Source: Planctomycetota bacterium (GTDB lineage Bacteria; Planctomycetota; Phycisphaerae; Phycisphaerales; Phycisphaeraceae). Taken from it: a stretch of DNA of 39,509 nucleotides. The notes under the pieces are model-generated. The model saw nothing but the letters and a program-made list of their open reading frames with translations. It made no database searches and was not told where the DNA came from. Positions 8,934-38,900 of this stretch are shown one piece after another (the first letter of the stretch is position 1; every line of letters starts with the position of its first letter). The stretch covers positions 1 through 39,509 of the forward strand of contig JAJRRC010000026.1 of NCBI GenBank assembly GCA_024279865.1, given 5' to 3'. Position numbers and translations under genes: made by a program.

Positions 8934-10490
8934 TTATTTCAAGTCAATGAAGTCAACCGTTTGGCCAGCGACTTGCACGCCTGCCTGCCATTGGACATTC
9001 ATGTTTTTAAGCTTGGTCACTTCAGATCGCTCCAGTGTGATCACGCTTTGAATCATACGGCTATCACCACCCACGTAAGTCACCGTCTGATGAGGCATCT
9101 GGTCTGCACCAATAGCCCGGTCGGTCAAAATACGCAATTGCTGAGCATGTGTTTGATATTCAATCACAAACAATCGCTTCGAACCCAATCGCAGGCCCGG
9201 ACGGCTTGAAGCACTTTCTTGATCAGCCAACGCTTTTTTAATCGCAGGACGAATCGAACGTTTCGATTTTTTAAGTGCTTTGTGAAGCAAGACCGTCGCT
9301 TCGTCACCAAAGCGCTCTTGAAACAATGTCACACCCATCGCAGAGGGATGATGTTTAAATGTGTCTGTATAAGCCTCTTCAATGGAATCGTCATTGCGAA
9401 TCCAATGATACAGTCGTCGGGCGATAAAAGAACTGTGTTTACCGGTGTATTGTGTCTGATAATTTTTCAAAGCACGGGTGATGCGTTTGTCTGCTGAAAG
9501 CACCGAACGCCGAGCATTAAAAAAGGCTTTGCCTGAATGGTCATAGCCCAGATTGGTCACTGCCGCGGTGAAGGTACGACTCACACGGTGTTGCAAGATT
9601 CGATCTCCCACCACCAGACGGTCAATTCGGTTGTACCGAGTCTGATGCAGGAGCCGTTGAGCGGAATAGGTTGCCTTGCCTGGGTAGGCTCGAAACAAGG
9701 TATCAATCGCCATGGCCCGAAGTGCTGCAGCCTTGGCGTTACGAACCACAGCAAAGAGGCGGCTTTCACCGCCGGTGGGTTTGGTTTTCAGAATAATACG
9801 CATGGCCTCAGCAGCCACGGGAAGACTCACGTCATTGATCTGACGAAGCACGTTCACCGCATCGCCAGCACGCCCGCCACGAATCAGTTCATCCAACGAC
9901 ACAACCGCAGCCAATGGCTTGGGAACTGCTTTGGAACGAATTGGTTTAAAGTTCCGTTCTTTATCGGTTACCGAAAGACTGCTCGCCAAGTAGCCGTCGG
10001 AAGCCACCAAAGATCGGTTGCGTGTAATGAGCGATTGGGAAGAAGGACGACGCTTCACGCCAAGACGTGGCGTGGGCTTGGTAACCTTGGCGATTTTGAC
10101 CGGTTTTGGTTTTGGAGCCGGGGCTACCTTGGCAACTTTAACCACTGGAGCCGCGCCCTTGACCACCGGGGCAACCACTTTCACAGGCTCCACAACGCGA
10201 GGCTTCGGAGCCGACGCAACTGGGGGAACCGGGGGAACCGGGGGAACTTCTGAAACTTCCGGGGGGGCCATTGCCACGGTAGTGGCGGGTTTTTGGGCGG
10301 TGGTGATTGTCTGGCGTGGTGGGATTTTGATACCTGCATGGCTCGCGCGGAATTCCATGTAGGCTCGTTCGGGGCTGCCGCCCGATGCAGAGGGCCTGGG
10401 AGCCGCAGGAGCCGAGCAGCCACTGACAAGCAAGACCGCCAGCGTCAATAGTGAAAAAAGACCACGAAAAAGGATAGAACAACGAAACAT
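8934..10490 (-). CDS. Large hypothetical lipoprotein with Pro/Val/Lys-rich linker
   Basis: 518 residues, unrecognised. A signal peptide with lipobox LVSGC (Cys25) predicts an outer- or inner-membrane lipoprotein. Residues about 60-150 are low complexity: PPVPPVPPV runs, then VVAPVVKGAAPVVKVAKVAPAPKPKPVKIAK, suggesting an extended, basic spacer that could cross the periplasm or touch peptidoglycan. Residues about 200-410 are mostly helical with AxxAM, KAAALRAMAIDTL patterns that could be HEAT-like, and the C-terminal 80 residues look beta-rich. I chose ATG 10488-10490 because AAGGAA precedes it and the signal peptide then starts properly; an upstream in-frame start would spoil the signal. The PPVPPV segment is encoded by repeat cluster C. 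It precedes rimO in the same direction. Confidence 0.7.
   Translation of the reverse strand: MFRCSILFRGLFSLLTLAVLLVSGCSAPAAPRPSASGGSPERAYMEFRASHAGIKIPPRQTITTAQKPATTVAMAPPEVSEVPPVPPVPPVASAPKPRVVEPVKVVAPVVKGAAPVVKVAKVAPAPKPKPVKIAKVTKPTPRLGVKRRPSSQSLITRNRSLVASDGYLASSLSVTDKERNFKPIRSKAVPKPLAAVVSLDELIRGGRAGDAVNVLRQINDVSLPVAAEAMRIILKTKPTGGESRLFAVVRNAKAAALRAMAIDTLFRAYPGKATYSAQRLLHQTRYNRIDRLVVGDRILQHRVSRTFTAAVTNLGYDHSGKAFFNARRSVLSADKRITRALKNYQTQYTGKHSSFIARRLYHWIRNDDSIEEAYTDTFKHHPSAMGVTLFQERFGDEATVLLHKALKKSKRSIRPAIKKALADQESASSRPGLRLGSKRLFVIEYQTHAQQLRILTDRAIGADQMPHQTVTYVGGDSRMIQSVITLERSEVTKLKNMNVQWQAGVQVAGQTVDFIDLK
10222..10267. repeat. CCCCCGGTT/GGAAG repeat cluster C, inside the lipoprotein gene
   Basis: Plus strand: three GGGGGAAC(C) units followed by TTCTGAAACTTCCGGGGGGG. 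On the coding (minus) strand it encodes the Pro-Pro-Val runs. The CTTCTGAAACTTCC centre is an imperfect palindrome shared with clusters B and F. Confidence 0.8.
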
Positions 10491-11356: not shown

Positions 11357-12181
11357 ATGACACACCCCCCCGGAAATCCCCCCGGAAATCCCCCCGGAAG
11401 TACCCCCGGAAGTACCCCCGGCAACAATCCCCGCAAAACTCCCGCCCCCCCCCCCGGAACCGCCCCCGGAACCGCCCCCGGCAAGACCCCCGTGGCCATT
11501 GTCACCGGCGCGGGCAGTGGCATTGGACGCGAAACCGCCAAATTACTGGCCTTGGCGGGATATCACACGGTTCTGGTGAGTCGCACGCTTAAAAATCTTC
11601 AGAAGACCGCGAGTCTTATTGAGGGGCCAAGTACCATTCATCCCACGGATTTGAGTTGCCGTTCAAATTGCCAGCAGGTCATTGAGCAAACCCTCGCAAG
11701 GCTCGGCCGTATTGATGCGCTCGCCAACGTCGCAGGATGCGCCCCCAGCGTCACCATCGAAAACATCACCGCAGAACTTTGGCAAAAAAACATCGATACC
11801 AACCTCTCTGCCATTGTGCATCTGACCTCTGCTGCCTGGCCTACCTTTAAACAGCAACAGCAAGGCATCATCGTCAACGTCTCTTCCTTGGCAAGCATCG
11901 ACCCATTCCCCGGATTTAGTATTTATGGAGCCGCCAAGGCAGGCGTGAATCTTTTTACCCTTGTGACTGCAAGAGAGGGCGCATCCCAAGGCATCAAAGC
12001 CGTCACCATCGCCCCTGGTGCGGTGGAAACGGGGATGTTACGAGCTTTGTTTGATGAAAGTGTCATCCCAGCCGACAAAACCCTCCGCCCCCAAGACATC
12101 GGCCAGCTTATTTGTGATTGCATCACAGGCCATAAAACGTTTGAGCCCGGCGAAGTGATTACTGTGCCGAATGAAGGGTAA
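11357..12181 (+). CDS. Short-chain dehydrogenase/reductase with repeat-encoded Pro-Gly N-terminus
   Basis: 274 residues. The Rossmann core begins at residue 46 with VAIVTGAGSGIGRETA (TGxxxGxG), followed by NVAG and the catalytic SSLASIDPFPGFSIYGAAK (Ser, Tyr, Lys), all classical SDR motifs. The preceding 44 residues are PPGNPPGNPPGST-type low complexity encoded by the C-rich repeat array at 11365-11492. AAGGA at 11343-11347 supports ATG 11357; a GTG immediately before VAIVTG could give a short, more typical protein, so the N-terminus is uncertain. Substrate is unknown. It is divergent from the M50 gene with only 43 bp between the chosen starts. Confidence 0.85.
   Translation: MTHPPGNPPGNPPGSTPGSTPGNNPRKTPAPPPGTAPGTAPGKTPVAIVTGAGSGIGRETAKLLALAGYHTVLVSRTLKNLQKTASLIEGPSTIHPTDLSCRSNCQQVIEQTLARLGRIDALANVAGCAPSVTIENITAELWQKNIDTNLSAIVHLTSAAWPTFKQQQQGIIVNVSSLASIDPFPGFSIYGAAKAGVNLFTLVTAREGASQGIKAVTIAPGAVETGMLRALFDESVIPADKTLRPQDIGQLICDCITGHKTFEPGEVITVPNEG
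11365..11492. repeat. CCCCCGGAAGTA repeat array D (largest)
   Basis: Eight CCCCCGG cores in 128 bp with 11-13 bp period: first GGAAAT spacers, then GGAAGTA, then GGCAACAAT, a longer degenerate stretch, and GGAACCG spacers at the end. It is in frame with the SDR gene and leaves long open frames on both strands. The spacer types come in adjacent pairs, as expected if units duplicate locally. Confidence 0.95.
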
Positions 12182-16276: not shown

Positions 16277-17590
16277 TCAATGATAGATCACATCATGATA
16301 AAGCTTCCCATCGGTGTCCTTGTACCAAACCAACGTTGGCACAGGTTGAAGGCCTGGCGCTTTGAGCCTCGGAGGCAAGCCGCGTTGGGAAGGCGTTAAC
16401 ATTTCAAAAAACTGTGGGCCACTGCTTCCGTTGGGCTGATAGCGATACATCGACTCATCTGCCGCGATGTAAACCTGTTCGAGGCTATGGGTTTTGCGCA
16501 TGACCTGATAGCCGACCTGCTGAAGAATGGTCCGCAACGCACGGGTGGTTTTAGGCATCTTCACGCCACTGCGTGAAATCGACCCAAGACCTTGGGCCAA
16601 AAACTTCATACGGTCAATGGCCTCGCTTAATGGGTCTGGTTCAATCTGACTGCTATAACGTTGCCAGGCACGCTGAAAGGACAAAACGAGATTTTCAAAC
16701 GAAACATCCGACCTGGCAAACGCATTGACAAAAGCTTCTTTGCTGGGCGTTTTTTTGCCAACTGCCAGAAGATAATGGGTAAACGCTTGTCGGTATTTTT
16801 TCTGATCTGCATTGATCAGGAAAAAGGTCATCGACCACGCTTGATCATATTGAAGGGCCGCCAACGCGGGCGATTGGCGTACTTGGGTGCTCCACGTCTG
16901 ATCGGACATACTGAGCATCAAATCAAAGGGCAGCGTTTGGCGATCCTTCAACGCTTGGCGAATGGTCCGCACCCGCCGGGCATTGGCGATGTCCAGGTAA
17001 AAATGTTTGCCCACAAGAATGCCATCTTCAAAATACTGAGCGAGCCCTTCATTGACCCAGATGGGTAAATGAGGCCCCATAAAGCGGTAAGCAAACTGGT
17101 GAAACCCTTCATGTTGCAAAACCGAAATCGTCTGCCCCACCGGTCTACCTTCTAGGAACGTAAATAGGCCTTTGGTTTGATCGCTGACGACGAACATGCC
17201 CCCGGAGTTGGTGGCATTGACTTGAAACTGAGCGAGCTGCTGAATGTAGTCCTGCTGTGTCTTGAGCAGATACAGGGCCATGGGCTTATTGGAGCCGTCG
17301 CGTTTAAAGTCTGATTGCTCAAACCGCTTTTGGTATTCATTGAAAATGCGGTCCATATGGCGAGCAAAAAACTTGGCTCGCTGACGACCGGCATTGGTAT
17401 AAACCACATAGTGACGGGTTTTAAACTGGGCCAAACGCCCCGCATAAACCTTCACCCCCCCCGGAAGCACCCCCGGAATGCCCCCCGGCATATCCCCCGG
17501 TAAAAAACCTGGAATCCCCCCGCCAATGCCCAAGGCCAATAGAAAAATCACCCACCAATGGGGTATGGATTTATTTGCCAGCATAGTCAA
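16277..17590 (-). CDS. DUF1570-type secreted or membrane-anchored zinc peptidase (peptidase MA-like)
   Basis: 437 residues. A hydrophobic segment WWVIFLLALGIGGG (12-25) acts as signal or anchor and is followed directly by a Pro-Gly stretch (about 26-45) encoded by repeat cluster E. The core shows LQHEGFHQFAYRF with HExxH (His160-Glu161-His164) and WVNEGLAQYFED (Glu181) as the third ligand, the gluzincin pattern of the MA clan; this arrangement is common in planctomycete DUF1570 proteins. The gene starts inside the 3' end of accD (20-bp overlap), so the two are probably co-transcribed. ATG 17590 and ATG 17584 are equally possible. Substrate unknown. Confidence 0.8.
   Translation of the reverse strand: MTMLANKSIPHWWVIFLLALGIGGGIPGFLPGDMPGGIPGVLPGGVKVYAGRLAQFKTRHYVVYTNAGRQRAKFFARHMDRIFNEYQKRFEQSDFKRDGSNKPMALYLLKTQQDYIQQLAQFQVNATNSGGMFVVSDQTKGLFTFLEGRPVGQTISVLQHEGFHQFAYRFMGPHLPIWVNEGLAQYFEDGILVGKHFYLDIANARRVRTIRQALKDRQTLPFDLMLSMSDQTWSTQVRQSPALAALQYDQAWSMTFFLINADQKKYRQAFTHYLLAVGKKTPSKEAFVNAFARSDVSFENLVLSFQRAWQRYSSQIEPDPLSEAIDRMKFLAQGLGSISRSGVKMPKTTRALRTILQQVGYQVMRKTHSLEQVYIAADESMYRYQPNGSSGPQFFEMLTPSQRGLPPRLKAPGLQPVPTLVWYKDTDGKLYHDVIYH
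17455..17521. repeat. CCCCCGGAAG repeat cluster E, inside the DUF1570 gene
   Basis: Four CCCCCGG cores at 11-15 bp spacing with GGAAGCA, GGAATG, GGCATAT and GGTAAAAAA spacers. In frame on the minus strand it encodes PGFLPGDMPGGIPGVLPGG just after the signal segment. Confidence 0.9.
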
Positions 17591-18509: not shown

Positions 18510-18882
18510 CGAATCCTCCTGCGGATTGGGCGAAAGACAGTTAAGTAAGAGCCAGGTCAACAAAAAGTGATTATACCCGCACAAGCCCCATTTTGTCAGC
18601 CCCCCGGAAGTAGCCCCCAGAAGTACCCCCCGAAAGTACCTAGGGCCATCGCATCTAAAGTTGTCCCATTTCATGGGATTGGACAAGCATTTTTGACCAC
18701 AAAGGGCCTCAAAAAGAGAAAATCGCCACAAAAAAAACGAAAAGACACGAAAAAAGACATCCGATTTTTTTAACATGAAGACAGAAAATTGTTTGCTGAC
18801 TTTTCGAACCTTCATGCCCTTGTTAGTTTATGAAAGCTGTCCTCATGTGAGTCAACGCTATGAAAAAGAGCTTGGCCGTCGA
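18510..18882. other. 373-bp intergenic region between accD and M19 dipeptidase genes
   Basis: Holds the accD ribosome binding site, the repeat cluster at 18600-18640, and a short inverted repeat TCCCAT-TTC-ATGGGA (18664-18678). The part 18700-18780 is A-rich on the plus strand. I see no small gene; the minus-strand open frame here is an upstream continuation of accD. Confidence 0.6.
18600..18640. repeat. CCCCCGGAAGTA repeat cluster, upstream of accD
   Basis: Three units in plus orientation: one exact (CCCCCCGGAAGTA) and two with single changes (CCCCCAGAAGTA, CCCCCCGAAAGTA). They look like decayed copies of the array at 11365-11492. It lies 91 bp upstream of the accD start. Confidence 0.75.
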
Positions 18883-21341: not shown

Positions 21342-21373
21342 CCCCCCCGGCCCCCGGCCCCCGGAATTTTCAG
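21342..21373. repeat. CCCCCGG repeat cluster F
   Basis: Three cores (seven C then GG; CCCCCGG; CCCCCGGAATTTTCAGA) starting two bases after the peroxiredoxin stop codon. The GGAATTTTCAGA end matches clusters B and C. Confidence 0.85.
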
Positions 21374-25987: not shown

Positions 25988-27709
25988 ATGAAATATATAA
26001 TTTTTATCATTGCAATCCTGCTCGTCTTGGCATCCATCGGCACTTGGTCTAGCTTGCCTGACGTCCAAACCACCCGGCCGGTGGTGTATTGGGTCACCGA
26101 TGCAAACCCCGCCCGCGTGGAACAGGTTGCCATCTTTCAACGTTGGCTAAAAAAACACAACTATCCGGACATGGAGTTGCGGGTTGACTCAGCAAACCGA
26201 GATATCGCCAAAATGATTATCCAAGGTGTCTCCGGCGTCGGCGGCGATACCATAGACGTCGCGTCCGGTGCAGGCATGCGGTATTTCCATTCCATGGGTC
26301 TTCTTGAACCAGTCACCGAACAAGCCAAACGACTCGGCTATGGCCTGGATAAAACCTATCCCCCCATCAGACCGGAACTGGCACTTGATGGTGAACAATA
26401 TATGTTTCCGTGCAATGTGTATGCCACCGTTTTTTGGGTCAATAAAAGCACGTTTCAAAAAGCAGGCGTACAGTCTCCTCCCACACGCTGGGATTTTGAA
26501 ACCTTTGAACGGATCGGCAAAGAGTTTGTCAAAAAAACCAATACCCCGGGCGAACGCCGAAGATATTTCATGGCCAATCGGGTAGACCCCATCGTCATGA
26601 TGCGAAGTTTGGGACTCAGTCGTTTTAATGAAACCCTCACCAGCTGCACCTACAATGATCCTCGCTATGCCAAAGCACTCTCGCTGATGCACAAGTGGAC
26701 CTTTGAAGACCATATCCTGCCCACGGCATCGGACGTAGACGCATTTGATACCGATGCAGGCTATGGCGGACCGGCTCTTTATCTGTTTGACAAGGGCAAT
26801 TATGCCATGTTCGGCATGGGACGTTATGCGTTGATTCGCTTGCGAGATCAGCAAAGAGAGCGGCTCGAAAAAAAACTGCCAATGATGGAGCTGGATATTG
26901 TCGAGCAGCCTCACGGCGGATTCCCCAACACCAACACAGGCACCCGTGCCGCGGCGGTGTACGTGGGCTCCCATCAGAAAGACCTCGCGGTTTATTTTCA
27001 AGCGTTTCTCGCCAGCAAAGATTACAACATGCAAGTGGTGCGAGATGCTGATGCGTTGCCCCCCAATCCGATTTACACGCACACACAAGCCTTCTCCAAA
27101 CCGCTGCCGTTGTTGCCGAACCTGACGCTTTTGTTTGAGTATGAGCCATCAGAAAAAACGACCGTCTCGAATTTTCGCATTCGTTTTTATGAAGCACTCG
27201 ACGAAGTGGACCGCGGCAGTCCTTGGTCGGTCACACAATTGCCACGCCCCCCCAAGCCCAAGCATATGGATGATGCACAATACGCAAAAACACTTGCTCT
27301 GTTTGATCAAAAATATGAAGCACTTTTGCCTGTTTATCGCAGTGAATGGGGTTTGCATGAAAAATTCATACAAACGATGGACCACACCGCCATTGCAGCC
27401 GCCAATACGCCCTTTGTGGTTTCCAACGTGGTCGATCGGATTACGCGCAAAGGCATCTCCACTTTTATGAATAATCTTGCCACTGCCGAGCAGACCAGTC
27501 ACAATACGGCACAACAAATCAATGCTGAAATTGAGCGGACTTTGTCTGAAAACCCTAATTTACAAAAACGATATGACCAACTAACTGCTGACCAGGCACA
27601 AATTGACGCGTTACGTCAGGCCGGGAAAAAAGTCCCTGTGCATTTGATCCGCAATCCGTTTTATCGTGCTTATTACCTCGCCCAAGGCTGGTTAGCAGAA
27701 ACACCTTGA
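25988..27709 (+). CDS. Sugar ABC transporter extracellular solute-binding protein, paralogue 1
   Basis: 573 residues. One N-terminal membrane segment (about 3-20) without lipobox cysteine suggests membrane anchoring or cleavage by signal peptidase I. The body is a family-1-type sugar-binding protein: VVYWVTDANPARVEQVAIFQRWLKKH, GVGGDTIDVASGAGMRYFHSMGLLEPV and MFPCNVYATVFWVNKSTFQKAG, WDFETFERIGKEF. The last 60 residues (helical, DQAQIDALRQAGKKVPVHLIRNPF) are an extension shared with the next gene. The ligand is unknown. It is 88 bp after uppS and probably starts a separate transcript. Confidence 0.85.
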   Translation: MKYIIFIIAILLVLASIGTWSSLPDVQTTRPVVYWVTDANPARVEQVAIFQRWLKKHNYPDMELRVDSANRDIAKMIIQGVSGVGGDTIDVASGAGMRYFHSMGLLEPVTEQAKRLGYGLDKTYPPIRPELALDGEQYMFPCNVYATVFWVNKSTFQKAGVQSPPTRWDFETFERIGKEFVKKTNTPGERRRYFMANRVDPIVMMRSLGLSRFNETLTSCTYNDPRYAKALSLMHKWTFEDHILPTASDVDAFDTDAGYGGPALYLFDKGNYAMFGMGRYALIRLRDQQRERLEKKLPMMELDIVEQPHGGFPNTNTGTRAAAVYVGSHQKDLAVYFQAFLASKDYNMQVVRDADALPPNPIYTHTQAFSKPLPLLPNLTLLFEYEPSEKTTVSNFRIRFYEALDEVDRGSPWSVTQLPRPPKPKHMDDAQYAKTLALFDQKYEALLPVYRSEWGLHEKFIQTMDHTAIAAANTPFVVSNVVDRITRKGISTFMNNLATAEQTSHNTAQQINAEIERTLSENPNLQKRYDQLTADQAQIDALRQAGKKVPVHLIRNPFYRAYYLAQGWLAETP

Positions 27710-27841
27710 GGCTTAAAAGATTAATGTAAAAACGATTCCACAAATAACCACGTTATCCATCGGGAGACAAAAACGCTATTATATAACGCTATCTGTTTAC
27801 TCTTATCCCTGTTTTTGCTCATGCTCTAGGTGGAGGACTCC

Positions 27842-29563
27842 GTGAAATATTTGATCGCACTTGTATTTTTCATATTGGTATTAGCATCGGTGACAACTTG
27901 GCTTATGTCGCCAAATGCGCCGACAAGCCGCCCTGTTATTTACTGGGTCACGGGCATGAACTCGGCACGTATGGAACAAGTTGCGATTTTTCAAAACTGG
28001 CTTATTAAGCATGGACACCCAGATATGGAATTGCGGTTGGATACCGCCAACCGCGACCCTTCAAAAATGATCATTCAAGGTGTCTCCGGGGTCGGCGGCG
28101 ATACATGGGATGTCTTCTCCGGAGCGGGCATGCGCTTTTTCCATTCGATGGGACTGCTTGAACCGGTGACCAAGCAAGCCAAAGAACTCAACTACGGCTT
28201 AGATAAAACCTTTCCAGCCCTCGTCCCAGAACTGTCCATCGACGGCGAGCAGTACATGTTCCCCTGTAACGTCACCACCAACCTCTACTGGGTCAACAAA
28301 GCAACCTTCCGAAAATATGGCATGGAACCGCCTTCAGGAACGTGGGACATCGAAACCTTTGAACGCATGGGCAAAGAGTTCACCAAAAAATCCAATCCCC
28401 CCGGCAAACGCCGAAGCTATTTCATCACCAATCGCGTTGACGCCTATGTCCTAGGACGAAGCTTCGGCACCTCCCAGTTCAACGAAACCCTCACCCGAAG
28501 CACACTCAATGCTCGAGGCTATACCAAAGCTTTAGAACTTATTTATAAGTGGACTTACGAGGATCATATCCTGCCCACGGCTGCAGACATGGATGCCTTT
28601 GATTCCGAAGCCGGCGAAGGCGGCCCAGAACTATACCTGTTTGACAAAGGTAATTATGCCACCTTCCTCAAGGGCCGTTGGGTTTTAATTCGCTTGCGGG
28701 AACAGCAGGAAGATCGTTTGCTTCGCAATGAACCACTCATGGAACTCGATGTGGTCCAGTCCATGTATAGCGAATTCCCCAATGCAATTATTGCAACCCG
28801 TGCAGCAGCCGTTTACGCGGGTTCGAAGCACAAAGATTTGGCGGTGTATTTCCAAGCATTTCTAGCTAGTGAAGATTACAACATGCAGATTGTCCGCGAT
28901 GCTGATGCGTTGCCACCCAATCCTATTTACATGGACACAGAAGCTTATTACAAGCCTCTGCCGCTGCTTCCAAATTTGCAATTGATCTTTAAATATCAGC
29001 CTTCGGAAACCGAGAAGATATCAGCATTTCGTATTCAATTTTATGAAGCACTTGACCAAGTCGACCGTGACAAACCTTGGTCGATTTCAGATTTACCCCG
29101 CCCCCCCAAACCTCAGCTCGCATCAGACGCTCAGTACCAAAAGCAGTTGATTGCTTTTGACAAGCAATACAATTTCACCCTCCCGATTTATCTCAATGAA
29201 TGGGGGTTGCATGAGAAATTTTCAAAAGCAACGACGACCATTTCCGTCCCCCCGGAAAACTCGCCGTTTGTGCTTTCAAACGTTGCTTCTCGCATGACGC
29301 GTAAAGCCTATATGGCCATGATGAACCATATCATCACCCCCCAAGAAGCAGCTCAACAGGCAGCCAAGCATGTGAATGCAGAAATAGATCGCAACTTAGC
29401 GGAGCACCCTCAATTGCGTGAACGCTATGAAAAACTTTTGGCTGACCAACAGGAAATTGAAGCCTTACGCAAAGCCGGCAAAAAAGTGCCTTTGCACTTG
29501 ATCCGCAATCCGTTCCATCAAGCTTATTACCGCGACCAAGGCTGGTTGAAGGAGACCCCATGA
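27842..29563 (+). CDS. Sugar ABC transporter extracellular solute-binding protein, paralogue 2
   Basis: 573 residues, highly similar over its whole length to the preceding gene, so a tandem duplication. I chose GTG 27842 (MKYLIALVFFILVLASVTTW), which has GGTGGAGG just upstream and aligns with the start of paralogue 1; GTG 27830 would add four residues. It has the same anchor, binding domain and C-terminal helix. Two isolated CCCCCGG units fall in this gene (near 28398-28404 and 29249-29255), at places where paralogue 1 differs. Its stop overlaps the permease start by ATGA. Confidence 0.86.
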   Translation: MKYLIALVFFILVLASVTTWLMSPNAPTSRPVIYWVTGMNSARMEQVAIFQNWLIKHGHPDMELRLDTANRDPSKMIIQGVSGVGGDTWDVFSGAGMRFFHSMGLLEPVTKQAKELNYGLDKTFPALVPELSIDGEQYMFPCNVTTNLYWVNKATFRKYGMEPPSGTWDIETFERMGKEFTKKSNPPGKRRSYFITNRVDAYVLGRSFGTSQFNETLTRSTLNARGYTKALELIYKWTYEDHILPTAADMDAFDSEAGEGGPELYLFDKGNYATFLKGRWVLIRLREQQEDRLLRNEPLMELDVVQSMYSEFPNAIIATRAAAVYAGSKHKDLAVYFQAFLASEDYNMQIVRDADALPPNPIYMDTEAYYKPLPLLPNLQLIFKYQPSETEKISAFRIQFYEALDQVDRDKPWSISDLPRPPKPQLASDAQYQKQLIAFDKQYNFTLPIYLNEWGLHEKFSKATTTISVPPENSPFVLSNVASRMTRKAYMAMMNHIITPQEAAQQAAKHVNAEIDRNLAEHPQLRERYEKLLADQQEIEALRKAGKKVPLHLIRNPFHQAYYRDQGWLKETP

Positions 29564-31056
29564 CGCATCGAAAACGAACCCTTCGGGAATTAGCCACGGG
29601 CTTAGGATTTCTCCTGCCCAATATTTTAGGCTTCCTGACTTTTACGACCATTCCACTGGTTTTCAGTATGGTGTTGGCGTTTAGTAACTGGGACCTCAAA
29701 CGCCATAACATGTTCAAAGAGGAGTCGATTTCCTTTTTGGGGATTGACAACTTTATCCGTCTCTTTTCAGAACCGGACTTTTGGCAGTACCTCGGCAACA
29801 CCCTGTTTTTCATGATGAACATTCCGTTTGCCATTGGCGGTAGTTTGCTGGCAGCGATTTTGCTCAGCAAAGACCTTGATGGGGGTAGCCGTCGGGCGGG
29901 GCTGTGGTTGTTTGCCTCGGCGGTCATGGTTGCCAGTCTTCTTATGCTGATAGTGGTTGGCATGGGCTCGACAGGCATGACGATTCTCATCTGTGGCCTG
30001 GCGTCGATGTTTCTCGTCGGCGGCACGCTGGGACGAACCTCGGTCTACCGCACCTTGTTTTACTTGCCTCACTTCACCGCAGGCGTTGCGACGTTCATCC
30101 TTTGGAAAAAACTTTACAACCCATACACAGGGCCAATCAACCAAGCCCTTCGCCCCATGTTCGACAAGGTTACAAACGTGGTCGTTTCCACCCCCACGCC
30201 CATGATTCAAGCAGGCTTCTGGGCTGCGATTGCCATTGCCATGGGACTGCTTTTCCTTGGCCTGCGAAAAATGGCCAATCAATGGCGTGATGGTGACCTT
30301 GGGTCCACTGCCATGGTTGTTCCCACAATCTTTTTACTGCTTCCAGCAGCAGTCAGCTTTTACAATGGATGGCTCCCCACTCAAACCGCTTCGTTCGTCA
30401 TCGGCATCTCCGCGGTTTGCCTACTCGTTTGGCATCTCTTTGGCATGGCCTCCAGCGGTCAAGAATTCCCCTGCAAAAAAAGCAATGGTTTTGGCAGTGC
30501 CGCGATGTTGGCTTTGGCCTTTATGGTGCTCCAATTTATTCTCATTGGATTGGGATTAACTGCTTACCACCTCCCAGTCAACGCAGCCGTCGACGGCGGC
30601 CTGCAACCTCCGTTCTGGCTGACAAGTGTTCACTGGGCCAAGCCTGCCATCATGATGATGGGCTTGTGGGGCGCGATTGGCTCGAACAACATGCTGTTGT
30701 ACTTGGCGGCGTTGACCAATGTGCCTGGCGATTTGTATGAAGCGGCCGATATCGACGGAGCTTCACGGTTCCAAAAATTCTGGAATGTGACTTGGCCCCA
30801 GTTGGCTCCCACCACGTTCTTCATTGTCGTGATGAGCATGATTCACGGCCTACAGGGTGGTTTCGAAATGGCAAGAACCATGACCCAAGGTGGACCTGCC
30901 GGGGCGACCACCACTCTGAGTTACTTCATCTATACCGAAGGTTTTGAAACCGGGCGTTTGGGATATTCATCGGCCGTGGCGTGGACTTTGTTCGCCATGG
31001 TCTTTACGATCACGATGTTCAACTGGAAATTTGGAAACCGCTATGTCAACGACTAA
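29560..31056 (+). CDS. Sugar ABC transporter permease (MalF/UgpA type) with extra membrane segments
   Basis: 498 residues, against about 300 for ordinary UgpA-type permeases. Canonical parts are the first segments (15-40, 85-102), YRTLFYLPHFTAGVATFILWKKLYNP (164-188), and the EAA loop EAADIDGASRFQKFWNVTWPQL near 394-415 that contacts the ATPase. Between them are two hydrophobic insertions: about 112-158 (two segments) and about 208-345 (about four segments). The total is therefore near 12 segments. It overlaps the binding-protein gene by 4 bp and the next permease gene by 14 bp. No ATPase gene is in the operon. Confidence 0.88.
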   Translation: MTHRKRTLRELATGLGFLLPNILGFLTFTTIPLVFSMVLAFSNWDLKRHNMFKEESISFLGIDNFIRLFSEPDFWQYLGNTLFFMMNIPFAIGGSLLAAILLSKDLDGGSRRAGLWLFASAVMVASLLMLIVVGMGSTGMTILICGLASMFLVGGTLGRTSVYRTLFYLPHFTAGVATFILWKKLYNPYTGPINQALRPMFDKVTNVVVSTPTPMIQAGFWAAIAIAMGLLFLGLRKMANQWRDGDLGSTAMVVPTIFLLLPAAVSFYNGWLPTQTASFVIGISAVCLLVWHLFGMASSGQEFPCKKSNGFGSAAMLALAFMVLQFILIGLGLTAYHLPVNAAVDGGLQPPFWLTSVHWAKPAIMMMGLWGAIGSNNMLLYLAALTNVPGDLYEAADIDGASRFQKFWNVTWPQLAPTTFFIVVMSMIHGLQGGFEMARTMTQGGPAGATTTLSYFIYTEGFETGRLGYSSAVAWTLFAMVFTITMFNWKFGNRYVND

Positions 31057-31891
31057 AACATACCGCCCTGGATTGGGCCGCAAATTCTATTCGTCGGCCA
31101 TGCTACATGTGGTCCTCACCCTCATGAGCTTGGGCTTGGCCCTTCCATTTGCATGGATGCTATTGACGAGCTTCAAACCCTTGGTCGAAGTTCAGTCTGA
31201 TAGCTGGATCCCGGTGCGTTGGCAGCCCAGCAATTACATTGAAGTTTTCAATGTGATTCCTTTCGCCAAGTTCTATTGGAACAGTTTGTTCGTGGCCAGT
31301 TGGGTAACGTTCCTGCAGGTGATGACCAGTTCATTGGCAGCCTTTAGTTTTTCGAGACTGCAATGGCCCGGCCGAGACAAAGTCTTTGCCCTTTATCTCT
31401 GCACCATGATGTTGCCTGGGTTGGTCATGATGATCCCCAACTTTCAGATCATGATTTCTCTAGAACTTGTTGATACCTACACGGGCTTGATTCTACCTGC
31501 TGCCTTCTCTGCGTTCGGCACCTTCCTGCTTCGCCAATTTATGTTGACGATCCCGGCGAGCCTTGATGAATCAGCCCAGATTGACGGTGCGAGCAAGTGG
31601 CGTTTGTATTGGGACATCATTTTGCCGTTGGCGCGACCCGGCTTGATCACGTTGACCATTTTTACCTTCATGGGCAACTACAACAGTTTCTTCTGGCCGT
31701 TGGTGATGATTAAGAGTGTGGAAAAATACACGCTCCCAGTTGGCCTTTTGTTCTTTGATTCTTCACGTGGTCAATCGACCCATCTGCTGATGGCAGCGGT
31801 CGCCATGTCGGTGATCCCGATGATTTTGCTGTTCTTGCTTCTTCAGAAACAGTTGGTCAAAGGCATTCAGATGGGCGCAGTGAAGGGTTAA
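31043..31891 (+). CDS. Sugar ABC transporter permease (MalG/UgpE type)
   Basis: 282 residues from ATG 31043, which lies within the end of the previous gene; a longer in-frame upstream part is only its shadow. LALPFAWMLLTSFKPLVEV is the typical first segment and TSFKP signature; ESAQIDGASKWRLYWDIILPLARPGL is the EAA loop; six hydrophobic segments are visible. It completes the membrane pore with the preceding permease. An ATPase of the MsmK/UgpC kind must be encoded elsewhere, as is common for such operons. Confidence 0.92.
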   Translation: MSTTKTYRPGLGRKFYSSAMLHVVLTLMSLGLALPFAWMLLTSFKPLVEVQSDSWIPVRWQPSNYIEVFNVIPFAKFYWNSLFVASWVTFLQVMTSSLAAFSFSRLQWPGRDKVFALYLCTMMLPGLVMMIPNFQIMISLELVDTYTGLILPAAFSAFGTFLLRQFMLTIPASLDESAQIDGASKWRLYWDIILPLARPGLITLTIFTFMGNYNSFFWPLVMIKSVEKYTLPVGLLFFDSSRGQSTHLLMAAVAMSVIPMILLFLLLQKQLVKGIQMGAVKG

Positions 31892-33279: not shown

Positions 33280-34404
33280 CTAGTACGCATTGCATTTTCC
33301 CAATGGAATCTGATTCAAATTGAGCTTGGCAAGATAGGCTGCGATCTGTTTGCCTGTATCACCCTGCCCATAAGGGTGGACCCTTGCTCGCGGGGGATTT
33401 GCGAGAGCTTGCTTCACCGCTCGTCCAATGGCTGCGAGTGTTTCCTCGCAATCAATGACATTGGCGGGACGTTGACGACCCCATTGACGTGGGCCGATGT
33501 TCACCACGGGCACGCCGCCGGGACGTGCTGCAGCAGCTTCGATCAAGCCCGCGCTGGAGTTGCCGACCAACACACTGCACCCCTTGAGCAAACCCACAAA
33601 CCGGTCTCGTGGCAAATGCTCAATTAGCTTGACCGACGATTCTTTGATCGCTTGTTCAATGCCCCGATAGCCCGGATCATGGTTGGACCCCAGGACCACG
33701 CACCGCATGAACTTGGTGGCCTTGAGAATGTTTTTCATCACACGCTGTTCCACGGCATCGGTTCGACCGCAAGAATGATGCAAAACAATCGCGTAAGGTT
33801 CAACCCTCTCCTTGACAGGGGGGATGGCTGCCAACCCATCCAATGAAGAGGAGCCCACGTTCCAGATATGGTCGGGGTTTTCACCCAGACGAATGAGACG
33901 TTGACGGCTTTGCGTCGTTGCTGCAAAGTGCAAATGTGAGAGCTTGCTAATCGCGTGACGCATGGCATCGTCAGCCACGCCTTGAGCGCGGTCCCCGCCA
34001 TGCAGATGAGCAATGTGACCAAACTGTCCCACACCCGCAGCACATGCCGCGGCAAAGGCTTCAATGCGATCCCCCAACACCAATACCACGTCCGGTGTCA
34101 GTTTTAACAAGGCTTGAGTGATGCCTGTGATCCCGCGTCCCAAGGCGGCCGCGTCTTCGGACGCGCACGCAGTTTGCGTGCGGCTATTGCTGGCGATCTT
34201 TTTTTGCATGATCACTTTGGCATCGATGCGAATGCCTGCTGCTTTGATATCTTTAGCCGTGTTTTGAACCCAGTGCAAACCGGTAACGATTGTGCGTAGT
34301 TGTAATTGGTGGTGGGCTTCAATGGCACGCATCACTGGCAATAACAGGCCGAACTCAGCCCGCGTACCGGTCACCACCACGATATGACGTTGGGCCGAGG
34401 TCAT
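33280..34404 (-). CDS. neuC: UDP-N-acetylglucosamine 2-epimerase (hydrolysing), NeuC-like
   Basis: 374 residues. It would release ManNAc or a related sugar from a UDP-sugar for sialic-acid-like (nonulosonate) synthesis. VVTGTRAEFGLLLPVMRAI is the N-terminal UDP-sugar loop, LVLGDRIEAFAAACAA carries the conserved Asp-Arg, AHLHGGDRAQGVADDAMRHAISKLSHLHFA matches the catalytic His region, and GNSSAGLIEAAA is the C-terminal UDP site. A tandem hairpin sequence (34150-34182) is embedded in the reading frame as NSRTQTACASEDAA. The start overlaps the neuA-like stop by 4 bp. NeuC versus LegG cannot be separated here. Confidence 0.88.
   Translation of the reverse strand: MTSAQRHIVVVTGTRAEFGLLLPVMRAIEAHHQLQLRTIVTGLHWVQNTAKDIKAAGIRIDAKVIMQKKIASNSRTQTACASEDAAALGRGITGITQALLKLTPDVVLVLGDRIEAFAAACAAGVGQFGHIAHLHGGDRAQGVADDAMRHAISKLSHLHFAATTQSRQRLIRLGENPDHIWNVGSSSLDGLAAIPPVKERVEPYAIVLHHSCGRTDAVEQRVMKNILKATKFMRCVVLGSNHDPGYRGIEQAIKESSVKLIEHLPRDRFVGLLKGCSVLVGNSSAGLIEAAAARPGGVPVVNIGPRQWGRQRPANVIDCEETLAAIGRAVKQALANPPRARVHPYGQGDTGKQIAAYLAKLNLNQIPLGKCNAY
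34150..34182. repeat. REP-like double hairpin inside the neuC-like gene (copy 2)
   Basis: CGCGTC-TTCG-GACGCG (34150-34165, a UUCG-type loop) is directly joined to CGCACGC-AGTTT-GCGTGCG (34164-34182). On the minus strand the block AGCCGCACGC(N5)GCGTGCGCGTC matches 20060-20083 except in the loop. It is in frame with the gene. Confidence 0.6.
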
Positions 34405-35126
34405 GCCTTGGATTGCTTTTTGTTGAGGGCCAGCACGGATTGAGCGAACATGAAATCCAGTTCGTCATCAATGTCAATCACATCCGTCGGCCGGGTCACG
34501 ATGGCTTTGCGATTCTCACCTAAAAACTGATGCGGATGAGCAGGGTCCACATCAAATAAACTCTCCCGCGTCACCGCCAACACGCCGCTGTTCAGCATGT
34601 AAACCGGCGGCAAATCCTGACGACGAAAAATTTCATTGGGCTCATAAGCCGTCAAGACATCACCATGCACACCGGACAATTTCCGCATCCACAACGGGTG
34701 CATTTTCCCCACGTTGTAGACCGTCTGCACGCTGTCCGCTTCGGTCTCAATTAACTTGGTCAAAGCCCGGTCCGTTAAGTTCTCCGGACGCAAAGCAACG
34801 TTGGCGTAGAGAATGGCCACGTACTGACATTTTTTTTGTGGATGTTCTTTTTCCCATGCACTGACACCATGACGAACTGCTGCGTCAATGGTGACCTGAT
34901 CGCCTGCAAGTTCTTGGGGACGGTCATAAGTATGAATCCCATAAGCTTTGCCCACTTGTAAAATGTCAGGCCCATCGGACGTTAAAACCACCGCGTCAGG
35001 CTTCACCGAGCCCAGTGCATGTTCAATCGTCCAAGCCACCAACGGCTTGCCCTCGAGCAGCCGCATGTTCTTGTTCTTGAGCCCTTTGCTACCAGCACGG
35101 GCAATAATGACAGCTAAAATCGACAT
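34401..35126 (-). CDS. neuA: Acylneuraminate cytidylyltransferase-like protein (NeuA/LegF/PseF)
   Basis: 241 residues from ATG 35126; TTG 35141 (AAGGG 9 bases upstream) would add five. It activates a nonulosonic acid as its CMP-sugar. ILAVIIARAGSKGLKNKN is the nucleotide-binding start, GKPLVAWTIEHAL and VVLTSDGPDILQVG follow, then the VTIDAAVRHGVSAW and ILYANVALRPE motifs, and HQFLGENRKAIVTRPTDVIDIDDELDFMFAQ the C-terminal part, all of the NeuA family. It overlaps neuC by 4 bp. The exact sugar is unknown. Confidence 0.88.
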   Translation of the reverse strand: MSILAVIIARAGSKGLKNKNMRLLEGKPLVAWTIEHALGSVKPDAVVLTSDGPDILQVGKAYGIHTYDRPQELAGDQVTIDAAVRHGVSAWEKEHPQKKCQYVAILYANVALRPENLTDRALTKLIETEADSVQTVYNVGKMHPLWMRKLSGVHGDVLTAYEPNEIFRRQDLPPVYMLNSGVLAVTRESLFDVDPAHPHQFLGENRKAIVTRPTDVIDIDDELDFMFAQSVLALNKKQSKA

Positions 35127-35153
35127 GATGCTAAAACCCAATGCCTAAAACCC

Positions 35154-36860
35154 TTAAGGACGATGCCACTGCGTGCAACTGGCGCACAACGCATGCGTGT
35201 CCCATTGTTCTTGTCGGTGCGATTCACTTATTTTCTTCGCGTTTTCCCAAGCTTCTGCCAAATGATCTGAATTTCCCAAAGAAGACCTGCACAACCAGTC
35301 CTGGTCGCACAAAGCAACCTCCCCTGTACTCAAAATGGTCAGCCGACGATCCAACTGACGACAAGCTCGCCTCCTAGGCGGCTGCATCGGCACAGGACTC
35401 AACGCAGGCATTAACCCACAACCCGTTGTCGCCGGCTCAATCATGGCGTGATTGGTGTAGTGCATCCAACGATCAAAAAATGTTTCCATGTCCTTGAGCG
35501 TGTCTGCCGTCTTCACCAAACCAGGCACAATCCAAGGCACCCCCGGAAGTCCAGATCCGTCAACCCCACCAACACGACCATCGCTACCTGCTGGAGAAAC
35601 CTGCAGGTCAATGGATTGCTCTAAACCCATTTCCCGGGAGGATTGCCAGCGTCGGTTACGATCATTGAGAAATCCTTGCACGCGATCAGTCACGAGCTTA
35701 AAGCCGTTTTCATGAGTCGGCTTCATCATTTTTTCGTAGGTTGCGGCAGTGTCTGCATTGATCCGAACACAGACCACATCCACAGGCAATTCCAGCAAAC
35801 GACTGGCCGTCTGAGGCTCAATCAAAAAGTCTGAAACGATCCCAATTCCAAACACGCCACAGTCAGCGGCCAGTTGGACGATTTGATCCCATTGGGGATG
35901 TAGCAGTGCATCGCCGAGGCCGCCAAACATGACCACGGTTTCGGAATTGAGCTGGTGGAAAATTTTCTCTGCCGTCGCCAAGGTCATTGGTTCGCGGTCC
36001 AGTGAGACATAGTGTTGAGGCAACAGTGGACCTGCTGCATCGCGTTGAGGCGTTAATTCCACAGTCACTTCATCGGGCATGGGAGGATTGTCAGGCTGTG
36101 GGATTTGAGACACGATCTGAACAGCAGAAGCATTCACATCCACTGCTTGAATCAAATGGATGCTACGTTGGGTATCGTAAATGAGCCGTTGGGTACATTG
36201 ACGTACTTCAGGGTCGATAGAGACACACAGATCTCGACCGATGGGGTCCGCCTGGGGATATTTGGGGTTGTATGCGAGCATACTGCCGAAGCTGGAACTT
36301 TCGTTTTCGACGAGTTGTTCTAGTAGCGGGCGAGCCACGACGATTCCGCTCAGGCCCGGAGGCGCTTGCGTAAAAGTCATCTGCAACGCATCGGGATATT
36401 CGAGATGTCGTTGAATTAAATTTTCGCCATAGGTGGGATCAACCAACGGCCAATCGCCGCCAACGATCAACGCGGCAGACGCATGGTTGGCTTTGACTGC
36501 CTCTAAAATCGGAGCTGCTGGAAGCAATTCATCGTAACAGGTCGCCCCTCCCAGTCCGCCACGCCAAGCATGACGGGCCCACTTGCGAGCGATTTGCCGC
36601 ATCGGTGTCATCGCGTCGACCAGTTTGTTTTCCACAGAATGAAACACGACTGGTTTTTTATGAGAATGCTGAACCAAAGACGCTGCGTCCTGATCTTTTT
36701 GATGCAACACCACGATGCTGCTCAAAGCTTTGATCTGGGACAAACGGCCAAGCGTACAATCCAAGACCGACCGACCGTTTAAATCGTCAGCCACACGCGA
36801 AGGCAAACCTAGCCTTGCGTGTTCCAAATCTGTGATGACCACTGCGATCACTTGACTCAT
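35154..36860 (-). CDS. Fusion of a nucleotidyltransferase-like domain and a degenerate radical SAM/SPASM-like domain
   Basis: 568 residues. The first 230 are a GT-A-type nucleotidyltransferase (VIAVVITDLEHARLGLPSRV, ALIVGGDWPLVDP 130-142). Residues about 265-470 resemble a radical SAM barrel: VTVELTPQRDAAGPLLP (265-281) is the first strand and loop, DREPMTLATAEKIFHQL the next helix, and MFGGLGDALLHP (311-322) the GGEPLLHP-type strand. The positions expected to hold the three cluster Cys are Arg273, Gly277 and Leu280. A SPASM-like end keeps ACRQL, VALCDQDW, SLGN and CASC (Cys500, 518, 559, 562). The start overlaps the Maf gene by 4 bp. A Gly-rich insert (426-443) contains one CCCCCGGAAG unit. 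Role is unknown, probably in glycan assembly. Confidence 0.7.
   Translation of the reverse strand: MSQVIAVVITDLEHARLGLPSRVADDLNGRSVLDCTLGRLSQIKALSSIVVLHQKDQDAASLVQHSHKKPVVFHSVENKLVDAMTPMRQIARKWARHAWRGGLGGATCYDELLPAAPILEAVKANHASAALIVGGDWPLVDPTYGENLIQRHLEYPDALQMTFTQAPPGLSGIVVARPLLEQLVENESSSFGSMLAYNPKYPQADPIGRDLCVSIDPEVRQCTQRLIYDTQRSIHLIQAVDVNASAVQIVSQIPQPDNPPMPDEVTVELTPQRDAAGPLLPQHYVSLDREPMTLATAEKIFHQLNSETVVMFGGLGDALLHPQWDQIVQLAADCGVFGIGIVSDFLIEPQTASRLLELPVDVVCVRINADTAATYEKMMKPTHENGFKLVTDRVQGFLNDRNRRWQSSREMGLEQSIDLQVSPAGSDGRVGGVDGSGLPGVPWIVPGLVKTADTLKDMETFFDRWMHYTNHAMIEPATTGCGLMPALSPVPMQPPRRRACRQLDRRLTILSTGEVALCDQDWLCRSSLGNSDHLAEAWENAKKISESHRQEQWDTHALCASCTQWHRP
35540..35550. repeat. Single CCCCCGGAAGT unit in the fusion gene
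   Basis: One exact core in the Gly-rich segment (encodes LPGV on the minus strand). It is a short match and may be chance, but the same peptide pattern (LPG) appears in the larger arrays. Confidence 0.45.
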
Positions 36861-38761
36861 GAGACGGTTTCCAAAATCTGTTTGCGTTGTTGATCGACTC
36901 GTTGCTTGGCATCACGAAAAATTTGCAAAACTTCGTCACAAGCCTCAATGAGCCAGCGAATATTGTCCGCATCTCGGTCGATTTGCTGGCGTTGTGTGGC
37001 CAAGGCATCGTTTTCATCATTGTGACGAATGGCCCGGTCTGCTCGAGCGCGTTTAAACGCACCAATGGTGTTCAGCTCATTGACGATGCCAAAGGTTTCG
37101 GACAGTCCATCCACGCGACGTTTGTGTTTTTCAATCTGATCGTGAATGCGGCAAGCTTTGTCGTAATTCTTCTGATGCTTCTTCATCTGCATCAAGAGAG
37201 GCACCGTCTTGCGACTCACCTCTCGAAGTTCGTGAACTTCATCTAAACGTTGTTGTAATAATTTTGCCACGTCTTCTAAACGCTCTGAATCAAAACCCTC
37301 TTCTGCTCGCGGAAACGCAGGGACCACACAGGTGGCATGTTTTTCCAATCCCTCGGCTAGCGTCATGCGTGTGGTGTGTTCTTTGGGCAATCCGCCTTCG
37401 GTACAGTCGAGGACCAATTGAGGAGCCTTGATAAAATCTCGTTCAAATTGTTTGAGATAGGTCATCATCTGCTCGTCGGTGTAAATGGATTTGCCATGAA
37501 TATCTTCTTGACGATCCAGATGCAGGCGATGTCGCACGATGCGTTGCCACTCCATCATTTCCAGAGTATTGAAGGCATTGAGTTCGGTGGCCCAGACATC
37601 ATGGATCGCGGTCCCCGGGCAATAGTACAGGCCGTCGGAGAAACCCATGTCCTGACCGATGAGCATGATCGGGTCACAGCCCACATGTTGCGCCAGGTAA
37701 AAAGACAAGTGCGCGACCGTCGCGCCGGATCGGATGGCGGTGATGGGTCGGGCGAACTTGCCTAACATGCGATCTAAAAATGGATTATTTGAAACACGGA
37801 TGGGGCCTGGAAAACTATCAAGGATCGCTTGATTGGCTTTGGGCTCAGCGACAAGGGTCACATTTTCCATCGGAGGCAAGTTTTCATAAAAACGGCTAGA
37901 AATTTCGTGATAGTCCAAAGCCGTCACAAAATCCGGTTCAATCCCACGGTCGAGCAACGGTTTGAGTGTGGTTTGAGCGGTAATCAAAACGATCTTTTTG
38001 CGGATCGCAGGGTCCCGTAACAGATCAATGTTTTTAGCCAGGCTCGGCCCTGCGCCCACGCACACAGCAGGATAGCCCTTGGCAACATTGTGCAGTTCGT
38101 TGGTCGTTGCCCCGGCTGCGTAATAAGCAATGTTCAAACAATTGTTGCGAATCGTGCGTGATGAATTGACCAAAGCGGTCGCCACGTTGGTTCGAAAAAA
38201 TGCGAGCACTTCGGTCACCATACTGCCAAAGGCGGTCAACTCCTGGCCGTTGGTTTGCCGACTGGCTGGATGGGTGATCAAGACGGTTCCCTGGGTCATG
38301 ATGCCGCCGAAGCCTTCGATGCGGCCGAGCAATCCGCCGCGGTCGATGGTGTCGTCAGCAATAATCACATTGGCTTTGCCTAGCCAGGCGGTGTGGTCAA
38401 TTTTTTCCAGCACCGCTCGCAGCAGGGACACATTGGGTTCGTACACAATGACAAGGCAATGTTCATGCCCCATCATCTTGACCGCATGGGCAATGTGATA
38501 CCCCAATCCCAAGCCCAGCAAAACCACCGCTGCGTGACGGGTTGGGTCAATTTCGGAAATGAGTTTGTCTGCCTCGCCAGCAGGATCATACCGGCTCGCC
38601 AGGGTGCGTTTGTTCCAACTCGCTGTCAGTGGGCCGGACTTGGACTCAGACCAGACCAACTCGGCCGGCTCAGTCTGTTCAATCCGCTTGGCCAACTGGG
38701 GCTCGGTGCGGCGAAGCTGCGCTAGATTAGCGCGCAAAATATCTGTCGTGGATTCAGTCAT
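36857..38761 (-). CDS. Motility-associated glycosyltransferase, Maf family (flagellin glycosylation)
   Basis: 634 residues. The central domain (about 225-420) is the Maf/DUF115 domain: YPAVCVGAGPSLAKNIDLL, IVLITAQTTLKPLLDRGIEPDFVTALDYHE, SGATVAHLSFYLAQHVGCDPIMLIGQDMGFS. The N-terminal part (about 1-200) contains VLLGLGLGYHIAHAV and LVIVYEPNVSLLRAVLE; the C-terminal 120 residues are coiled-coil-like helices. Maf proteins transfer pseudaminic or legionaminic acid to flagellin. It heads the minus-strand operon with the fusion protein, NeuA-like and NeuC-like genes, each overlapping or nearly so. No flagellin gene is in view. Confidence 0.85.
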   Translation of the reverse strand: MTESTTDILRANLAQLRRTEPQLAKRIEQTEPAELVWSESKSGPLTASWNKRTLASRYDPAGEADKLISEIDPTRHAAVVLLGLGLGYHIAHAVKMMGHEHCLVIVYEPNVSLLRAVLEKIDHTAWLGKANVIIADDTIDRGGLLGRIEGFGGIMTQGTVLITHPASRQTNGQELTAFGSMVTEVLAFFRTNVATALVNSSRTIRNNCLNIAYYAAGATTNELHNVAKGYPAVCVGAGPSLAKNIDLLRDPAIRKKIVLITAQTTLKPLLDRGIEPDFVTALDYHEISSRFYENLPPMENVTLVAEPKANQAILDSFPGPIRVSNNPFLDRMLGKFARPITAIRSGATVAHLSFYLAQHVGCDPIMLIGQDMGFSDGLYYCPGTAIHDVWATELNAFNTLEMMEWQRIVRHRLHLDRQEDIHGKSIYTDEQMMTYLKQFERDFIKAPQLVLDCTEGGLPKEHTTRMTLAEGLEKHATCVVPAFPRAEEGFDSERLEDVAKLLQQRLDEVHELREVSRKTVPLLMQMKKHQKNYDKACRIHDQIEKHKRRVDGLSETFGIVNELNTIGAFKRARADRAIRHNDENDALATQRQQIDRDADNIRWLIEACDEVLQIFRDAKQRVDQQRKQILETVS

Positions 38762-38805: not shown

Positions 38806-38900
38806 CCCCCCCCCCGGAATTTCCCCCAGAAGTTTCCCTTGGGAATTCTCTCGCCCTTGGTCATCTTTCGAGAAAGTTCCCTTGGGGATGTCTTGTCCCC
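38806..38900. repeat. Degenerate CCCCCGGAAG repeat cluster H, upstream of the Maf gene
   Basis: Ten C then GGAATTT, CCCCCAGAAGTTT, CCCTTGGGAATT, then AGTTCCCTTGGGGATG and TGTCCCC. Only the first unit is close to consensus; the others share its CCC-(GG/AG)AAGTTT spacing, so this seems an older cluster. Confidence 0.65.

Follow-up and report, generated by a model that had tools for sequence, protein, structure and literature searches.

A spiro-SPASM-like protein without radical-cluster cysteines, encoded next to a Maf flagellin glycosyltransferase in a planctomycete

Results

A gene of a Maf operon encodes a three-part protein

The stretch of DNA analysed here, called the window, covers positions 1 to 39,509 (39,509 nucleotides) of contig JAJRRC010000026.1 from a member of the Planctomycetota (assembly GCA_024279865.1). 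On its minus strand lies a tight series of genes encoding, from upstream to downstream, a Maf flagellin glycosyltransferase, a 568-residue protein, a PseF/NeuA-like synthetase and a NeuC epimerase (Table 1). The 568-residue protein, encoded together with its stop codon by one open reading frame (ORF) that overlaps the Maf gene by 4 nt, combines a cytidylyltransferase-like domain, a barrel of the radical S-adenosylmethionine (SAM) type and a Twitch end, and the cysteines expected to hold the radical cluster are missing from it. A Pfam search found no MptE-like domain in this protein. As NeuB-type matches and five flagellin matches are present elsewhere in the same genome, a nonulosonate/flagellin reading of the operon is reasonable, and the flagellin glycosylation setting proposed in the initial annotation fits the adjoining Maf, PseF/NeuA-like and NeuC genes.

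Table 1. Features of the Maf operon and parts of the 568-residue protein (positions in the window)
Feature	Position	Strand	Basis
Maf flagellin glycosyltransferase (MptE-like and Maf N-terminal domains)	36857..38761	-	PF01973, E=1.2e-35; PF20157, E=1.7e-7
568-residue protein: cytidylyltransferase-fold, radical-SAM-fold and Twitch domains, radical-cluster Cys missing	35154..36860	-	
Residues 1-256, cytidylyltransferase-like domain with degenerate triphosphate loop (ITDLEHARLGLPSR); WRGG at 99-102	36093..36860	-	Structural match to 6oew
Residues 257-495, BtrN-like radical-SAM-type barrel; 420-433 of low confidence	35376..36092	-	Structural match to 4m7t; predicted local distance difference test (pLDDT)
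Residues 268-282, ELTPQRDAAGPLLPQ, presumed former CxxxCxxC loop, now R273/G277/L280	36015..36059	-	Profile alignment
Residues 313-322, GGLGDALLHP, probable equivalent of the SAM-binding GGE(P) strand	35895..35924	-	
Residues 496-568, Twitch/SPASM end	35157..35375	-	PF13186, 26 bits (gathering score 21.5)
Codons of the Twitch cysteines C500, C518, C559 and C562	35361-35363, 35307-35309, 35184-35186, 35175-35177	-	
CMP-sugar synthetase, PseF/NeuA-like, next gene	34401..35141	-	PF02348, E=7.5e-15; PseF model, E=3.1e-25, below cut-off
NeuC-type UDP-N-acetylglucosamine 2-epimerase, following gene	33280..34404	-	TIGR03568, 296 bits, over cut-off

The radical-cluster ligands are absent and the Twitch cysteines are kept

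Radical SAM enzymes are defined by their cluster. According to the initial annotation, the SAM-cleaving cluster seems lost from the 568-residue protein and the auxiliary-cluster part is kept. When a profile of 55 relatives was aligned with BtrN, the match was gapless from the Glu preceding the loop through the third Cys, and the Cys-x3-Cys-x2-Cys-Pro of BtrN fell on R273-x3-G277-x2-L280-P281, which reproduces the loop match with Arg273, Gly277 and Leu280 at the Cys positions. The corresponding BtrN residues C16, C20 and C23 are its radical-cluster ligands (available text of PMC9012708). Residues 262-292 of the 568-residue protein contain no Cys at all. At the other end, the SPASM motif CX9-15GX4C followed by CX2C, whose spacing and four-Cys auxiliary site are described in the available text of PMC6231123, is present as C500-X12-G513-X4-C518 and C559-X2-C562, and these four Twitch cysteines are among the nine residues invariant in the 55-sequence alignment. 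In profile searches PF13186 matched residues 500-563 above its gathering score and PF04055 gave no match at E≤1. The GGLGDALLHP strand is also retained; its GGLGD, aligned with the YGE of BtrN, is the likely counterpart of the SAM-binding strand, with G313 and G316 invariant in the 55 sequences.

In the order of the window, the gene was found in 51 of the 61 genomes searched, and 48 members were aligned (the window protein and 47 others; the G024 gene is split over contigs, and G048 and G056 were not included). The loop is present in 43 of them, the region having been lost in five, and its typical motif is E-L-T-P-x-R-x3-G-P-x2-P-Q. Since Arg stands at 273 in every one of the 43 loop-bearing members and the three positions are without Cys throughout, the change in the loop is more than chance; Gly at 277 is found in 38 of the 43. 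Cysteines elsewhere in the loop, an outcome that the initial annotation had set against its own proposal, do occur within residues 262-292 in 7/43 members, but they are single, lie at differing places and never form a set of three, so that the cluster is not rescued.

The predicted fold is that of a radical SAM barrel joined to a cytidylyltransferase

The AlphaFold2 model built with 55 sequences had a mean pLDDT of 93.3 and a predicted template modelling score (pTM) of 0.93, residues 420-433 being uncertain. The best structural match of residues 257-568 was BtrN (4m7t; Z 22.3, root-mean-square deviation (rmsd) 2.4 over 227 aligned residues), and the other leading matches were the radical SAM structures DesII, BlsE, SuiB, anSME and MoaA, some of which (DesII, BlsE) act on sugars. 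The model has the partial TIM-type barrel of radical SAM proteins followed by the Twitch end, as the initial annotation had supposed, and the non-barrel fold that would have contradicted it was not obtained. BtrN, a dehydrogenase of butirosin biosynthesis, shares this fold and the four-Cys auxiliary site with the 568-residue protein; it differs in being an active enzyme with all three radical-cluster ligands, and its solved chain of 270 residues has no nucleotidyltransferase domain.

Residues 1-265 matched the Leptospira borgpetersenii cytidylyltransferase 6oew (Z 21.8, rmsd 2.6, 214 aligned residues) and, with Z about 16, CMP-Kdo synthetases of the KdsB type. The proposed nucleotidyltransferase is therefore borne out as a fold, but the triphosphate-binding ARMGSTRLPGK of 6oew is replaced in the family profile, and with a degenerate loop this half may not be an active nucleotidyltransferase, which argues for binding over catalysis. 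PF02348 found no match in the 568-residue protein at E≤1. The 55-sequence profile was needed to reach these relatives among the PDB sequences (BtrN, E=4.6e-14; 6oew, E=4e-4), as a phmmer search with the single protein returned three matches only, with E of 0.56-0.96. The PHROGs profiles gave one match (E=0.05) with no function attached, and a scan of viral contigs with one homologue found nothing.

The protein belongs to a planctomycete branch beside spiro-SPASM

The same three-part architecture, with a Twitch-type four-Cys end, is that of the NCBIfam family TIGR04321 ('spiro-SPASM') of the Spirochaetota; the initial annotation knew of no described family with it. With 97.5 bits the 568-residue protein stays below the family's cut-off of 250, which was reached in none of 149 genomes of the window's phylum; in a full-length alignment and tree the planctomycete rows form one clade beside the spirochete members, with the same domain order and common ancestry. 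The window protein is thus a member of a planctomycete branch below the cut-off of an already named architecture, and, unlike some spirochete members, it has no CxxxCxxC.

A scan of named genomes gave 108 confirmed loci, the best 80 of which were examined. Among these 80, three were spirochete proteins over the TIGR04321 cut-off and 58 (L101-L158; L155 is titled only 'bacterium') were complete or nearly complete proteins of the planctomycete branch, none of which has CxxxCxxC anywhere in the protein. Adding the window protein, loop cysteines occur in 0/59 and the four Twitch cysteines in 57/59 members, L158 ending at a contig edge and L150 having lost them. The long N-terminal extensions of several planctomycete ORFs are probably artefacts of where mechanical ORF calling placed the start.

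Across 247 spirochete genomes, 214 had a family match at E≤1e-25 and 201 one over the cut-off. We read 73 of the 214 members, a non-random sample made up of the 30 best-scoring, 40 spread down the list and three named ones. Homologues that still have CxxxCxxC at the aligned loop were found: 31 of the 73 are Cys+ and 42 are Cys-, ten of the latter keeping one of the three cysteines. The four Twitch cysteines are present in 31/31 Cys+ and 41/42 Cys- members. The CxxxCxxC of L220 was rejected as a loop motif because it sits at residue 496, outside the loop. PF04055 matched the two Cys+ members scanned (E about 1e-11) as well as the Cys-less L164 (E=7.4e-16, model positions 21-164). A Treponema pallidum hypothetical protein, TPASS_0285, which may or may not be of the same family, is given as a SPASM iron-sulfur protein in the available text of PMC4403809.

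A maximum-likelihood tree of 94 members was computed with the loop columns excluded, by a quick method without bootstrap; it contains four long-branched rows and 55 rows whose composition is unlike that of the rest. The 21 planctomycete rows form one clade (Shimodaira-Hasegawa-like approximate likelihood ratio test, 100), and Cys+ and Cys- members are interleaved, requiring at least ten changes of loop state, six of them forced by the starred branches alone. The parsimony count cannot separate gain from loss, but losses are the natural reading because CxxxCxxC is the superfamily's own motif and 8/8 ordinary radical SAM/SPASM proteins aligned alongside have it. Two old paralogues in place of loss are unlikely, since 211 of the 214 spirochete genomes have a single match at E≤1e-25 and the Cys states interleave on the tree. 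Oxygen was also considered as the driver of loss and rejected: in a search of the 247 spirochete genomes for heme-copper oxidase (PF00115, E≤1e-20), the enzyme was found in 12/31 Cys+ and 6/42 Cys- genomes (Fisher p=0.03), the opposite of what loss in aerobes would give.

The rest of the protein stays under constraint

We compared weighted column conservation between the 31 Cys+ and the 42 Cys- spirochete proteins. In the Cys+ set 71 columns reached a conservation of at least 0.7, and at 67 of them the commonest residue is unchanged in the Cys- set (at 0.8 or above in 45). The remaining four are the three Cys columns, which fall to 0.08, 0.07 and 0.04, and the aromatic position between the last two, where Phe drops from 0.72 to 0.12 and Tyr (0.68) takes its place. 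The planctomycete branch keeps the four Twitch cysteines, G316, H321-P322, Y375, R497, G513 and W538.

The family tracks Maf and is fused to it in some families of the order

A Maf homologue is found in 51 of the 58 planctomycete-branch loci, mostly with a 4-nt overlap with the gene. Among the 61 planctomycete genomes, Maf (PF01973) is present in all 51 that have the gene and absent from nine of the ten that do not; the exception, G036, has its Maf about 500 bases from a contig end, and six of these ten genomes are 51-88% complete (G002, G013, G017, G019, G031, G033). Flagellin was found in 49/51 genomes with the gene versus 5/10 without. The remaining two gene-bearing genomes, G043 and G055, have no flagellin and gave weak Maf matches (7e-11, 2e-5) inside fused proteins; these fusions (L040, L042) may be decaying or reused without flagella.

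All 214 spirochete genomes with the family have flagellin and MptE-like/Maf, and 23 of the 33 without it lack Maf (a few genomes were counted as having no match because the match lists do not name them): seven have neither flagellin nor Maf, 16 have flagellin but no Maf, and ten have both. As the 16 flagellin-bearing, Maf-less genomes are all family-less, the family tracks Maf more closely than flagellin. These counts, like the Fisher tests, ignore the relatedness of the genomes. The sixteen are small genomes of about 0.9-1.8 Mb (e.g. G282, G307, G340), a joint absence of Maf and spiro-SPASM in a flagellated lineage.

Maf is a separate protein from the 568-residue one, adjacent to its gene in planctomycetes, co-occurring in both phyla and fused to it in some families. 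In 15 members of the 48-sequence alignment, from four families of the order (f2-f5), Maf and the spiro-SPASM-like family lie within one ORF; the MptE-like domain of Pfam was confirmed in all five long fused proteins scanned. None of the 15 keeps four Twitch cysteines, whereas the 33 members apart from Maf have four in 26 cases, three in 4, and none or one in 3. The barrel itself can go: five of six f2 genomes (G037, G042, G046, G050, G054) keep the nucleotidyltransferase part and little barrel. A 1200-aa ORF of G003 was rejected as a fusion, having no Maf inside, and was counted as separate.

At the spirochete loci the family gene adjoins that of an SpsF-like cytidylyltransferase, which often carries, or is followed by, a methyltransferase domain. 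This neighbour cluster is seen in 35 of 43 loci, 22/24 Cys+ and 13/19 Cys-, so the spirochete protein kept its company after cluster loss. Two further observations concern these loci. At 24 of the 43, the gene directly upstream of spiro-SPASM encodes a SurA-like peptidyl-prolyl isomerase (e.g. L225, L226, L240; one representative was scanned). The ORFs beside the spiro-SPASM gene at L239:7184-8095, L256:4621-5727 and L222:3852-5012 are about 300-390 aa long and gave no Pfam match at E≤0.001; the last of them may be a mechanical ORF only.

Other features of the window

Short dispersed arrays of 7-13-base units with a core like CCCCCGGAA lie at window positions 4372-4404, 10218-10247, 11366-11492, 17457-17500, 18600-18640, 21344-21364 and 38811-38838. 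The two-unit form of the pattern occurs 227 times in the window's genome versus 0 for the reversed control, and 51, 23 and 15 times in the relatives G001, G002 and G006, the other 17 searched having 0-6 each. The arrays are a lineage-specific expansion and lie partly inside ORFs, reading as PGNPPG-like repeats. At 25988-27709 and 27830-29563, immediately ahead of two ORFs of ABC sugar permease type (29560-31056 and within 30944-31891), lie the tandem genes of solute-binding-type proteins of 573 and 577 aa that are clearly similar to each other; all were named by eye from the sequence.

Discussion

The gene beside Maf probably encodes a catalytically reduced descendant of the spiro-SPASM lineage, with a radical-SAM/Twitch part and a cytidylyltransferase-like part, that has been kept as a non-radical partner of Maf. 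The protein lacks the canonical radical-SAM cluster ligands, and it co-occurs with Maf; what it does in that company would be as follows. The constraint on the Twitch cysteines and on core positions suggests that one auxiliary [4Fe-4S] cluster is probably held, as in BtrN, which still holds its auxiliary cluster when the radical-cluster cysteines are mutated (available text of PMC9012708). Operon position, co-occurrence and fusions suggest that the protein acts with Maf, binding and presenting the CMP-nonulosonate, its glycan product or flagellin. The sugar-binding or scaffold role suggested in the initial annotation would fit such a part. The auxiliary cluster would be mainly a structural or docking element, because forms built into the Maf chain are without it. 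In Aeromonas, Maf1 works in the cytoplasm and binds directly to flagellin, also when pseudaminic acid is missing (available text of PMC4065374), so that a presenting subunit would act there too.

Several results weigh against this proposal. The branch of the window has changed much more than the Cys- spirochete members: it shares the commonest residue at 32 of the 71 columns conserved in Cys+ proteins, the window protein itself at 28. The presumed pocket residues Gln404, Lys433, Asp448, Trp458 and His459 of L160 are not kept in it, so that its pocket may serve another ligand. Ten spirochete genomes have Maf without the family, and at the spirochete loci that we read the adjoining gene is not Maf. 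A small number of events may account for the fusions, and 7/33 separate members are also without four Twitch cysteines. Four cysteines could hold zinc instead of an iron-sulfur cluster. Retention of the GxGE/D strand also fits a SAM-binding protein doing non-radical chemistry, and co-occurrence and fusion indicate partnership, not mechanism.

The main rival to a binding and presenting partner of Maf is a non-radical enzyme with SAM or a sugar nucleotide in its barrel, acting on the glycan or on flagellin, for example by methyl transfer or by redox chemistry through the auxiliary cluster. We regard it as unlikely. The GxGEP strand, the T-x-G turn and the loop aromatic (as Tyr) are conserved in Cys- spirochetes, several of the closest structures act on sugars or aminocyclitols (BtrN, DesII, BlsE), and Salmonella FliB is a SAM-dependent [4Fe-4S] flagellin methyltransferase without the canonical motif (available text of PMC8598068). 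FliB is an analogy only, however, as it has CX4CX3CC and no similarity to known structures is reported for it. Moreover, no common replacement of the cysteines is found: the first position is Arg in 43/43 members of the order, but the positions vary in spirochetes, where one of the three cysteines persists in 10/42. Few of the presumed pocket residues are present in the window protein.

It is rather improbable that the catalytic work is done by the N-terminal nucleotidyltransferase, with the radical-SAM/Twitch half serving it as a regulatory or docking module. The 17 diverse planctomycete members compared all have WRGG, P168-G169 and R225, the GDWPLVDP of the window protein resembles the GDCPLID of the solved Leptospira cytidylyltransferase, and in f2 this part outlives most of the barrel. 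Yet the triphosphate loop is replaced, the GDxP aspartate is present in just 1/8 members from outside the order in the 17-member alignment, and a CMP-sugar synthetase gene adjoins.

A protein that is still a radical SAM enzyme, through other ligands or a partner-supplied cluster, is very hard to reconcile with the absence of Cys at the three positions in 43/43 members and the scattered single Cys in seven, even if the fold and the GGE-like strand are retained and ThiC is a radical SAM enzyme with a different Cys arrangement. We give equally little credence to a decaying gene without present function: in other families of the order the Twitch cysteines do go, and in the end much the greater part of the barrel, but full-length ORFs persist at about 34-51% identity among genera of the window's family, nine residues are invariant over 55 sequences, and operon position and the association with Maf are conserved.

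Taken together, the data from both phyla allow a broader and more tentative reading, which we consider possible but not the likelier outcome. The core role of spiro-SPASM would be to hold a nucleotide-sugar or flagellin in the cytidylyltransferase/barrel pocket and to hand it to Maf, radical chemistry being optional and dropped independently by some ten lineages. In the order of the window the loop would have acquired its Arg motif, and the protein would have become an obligate Maf companion, fused to it in some families. It would then have shed its auxiliary cluster and, in a single family, nearly the whole barrel too.

Among the papers listed in the literature searches, no title or opening of an abstract described repeated loss of the radical cluster, the planctomycete branch or the Maf fusions. 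A family in which these ligands were apparently lost about ten times while the rest, including the second cluster site, stayed constrained is a natural experiment on what the fold does without its radical, and the presence of Cys+ and Cys- relatives in one phylum makes the question directly testable. If the broader reading is true, the family would offer a full series from radical enzyme to glycosyltransferase subunit. The results also point to an overlooked companion of Maf in two phyla, where flagellin glycosylation may need an extra component.

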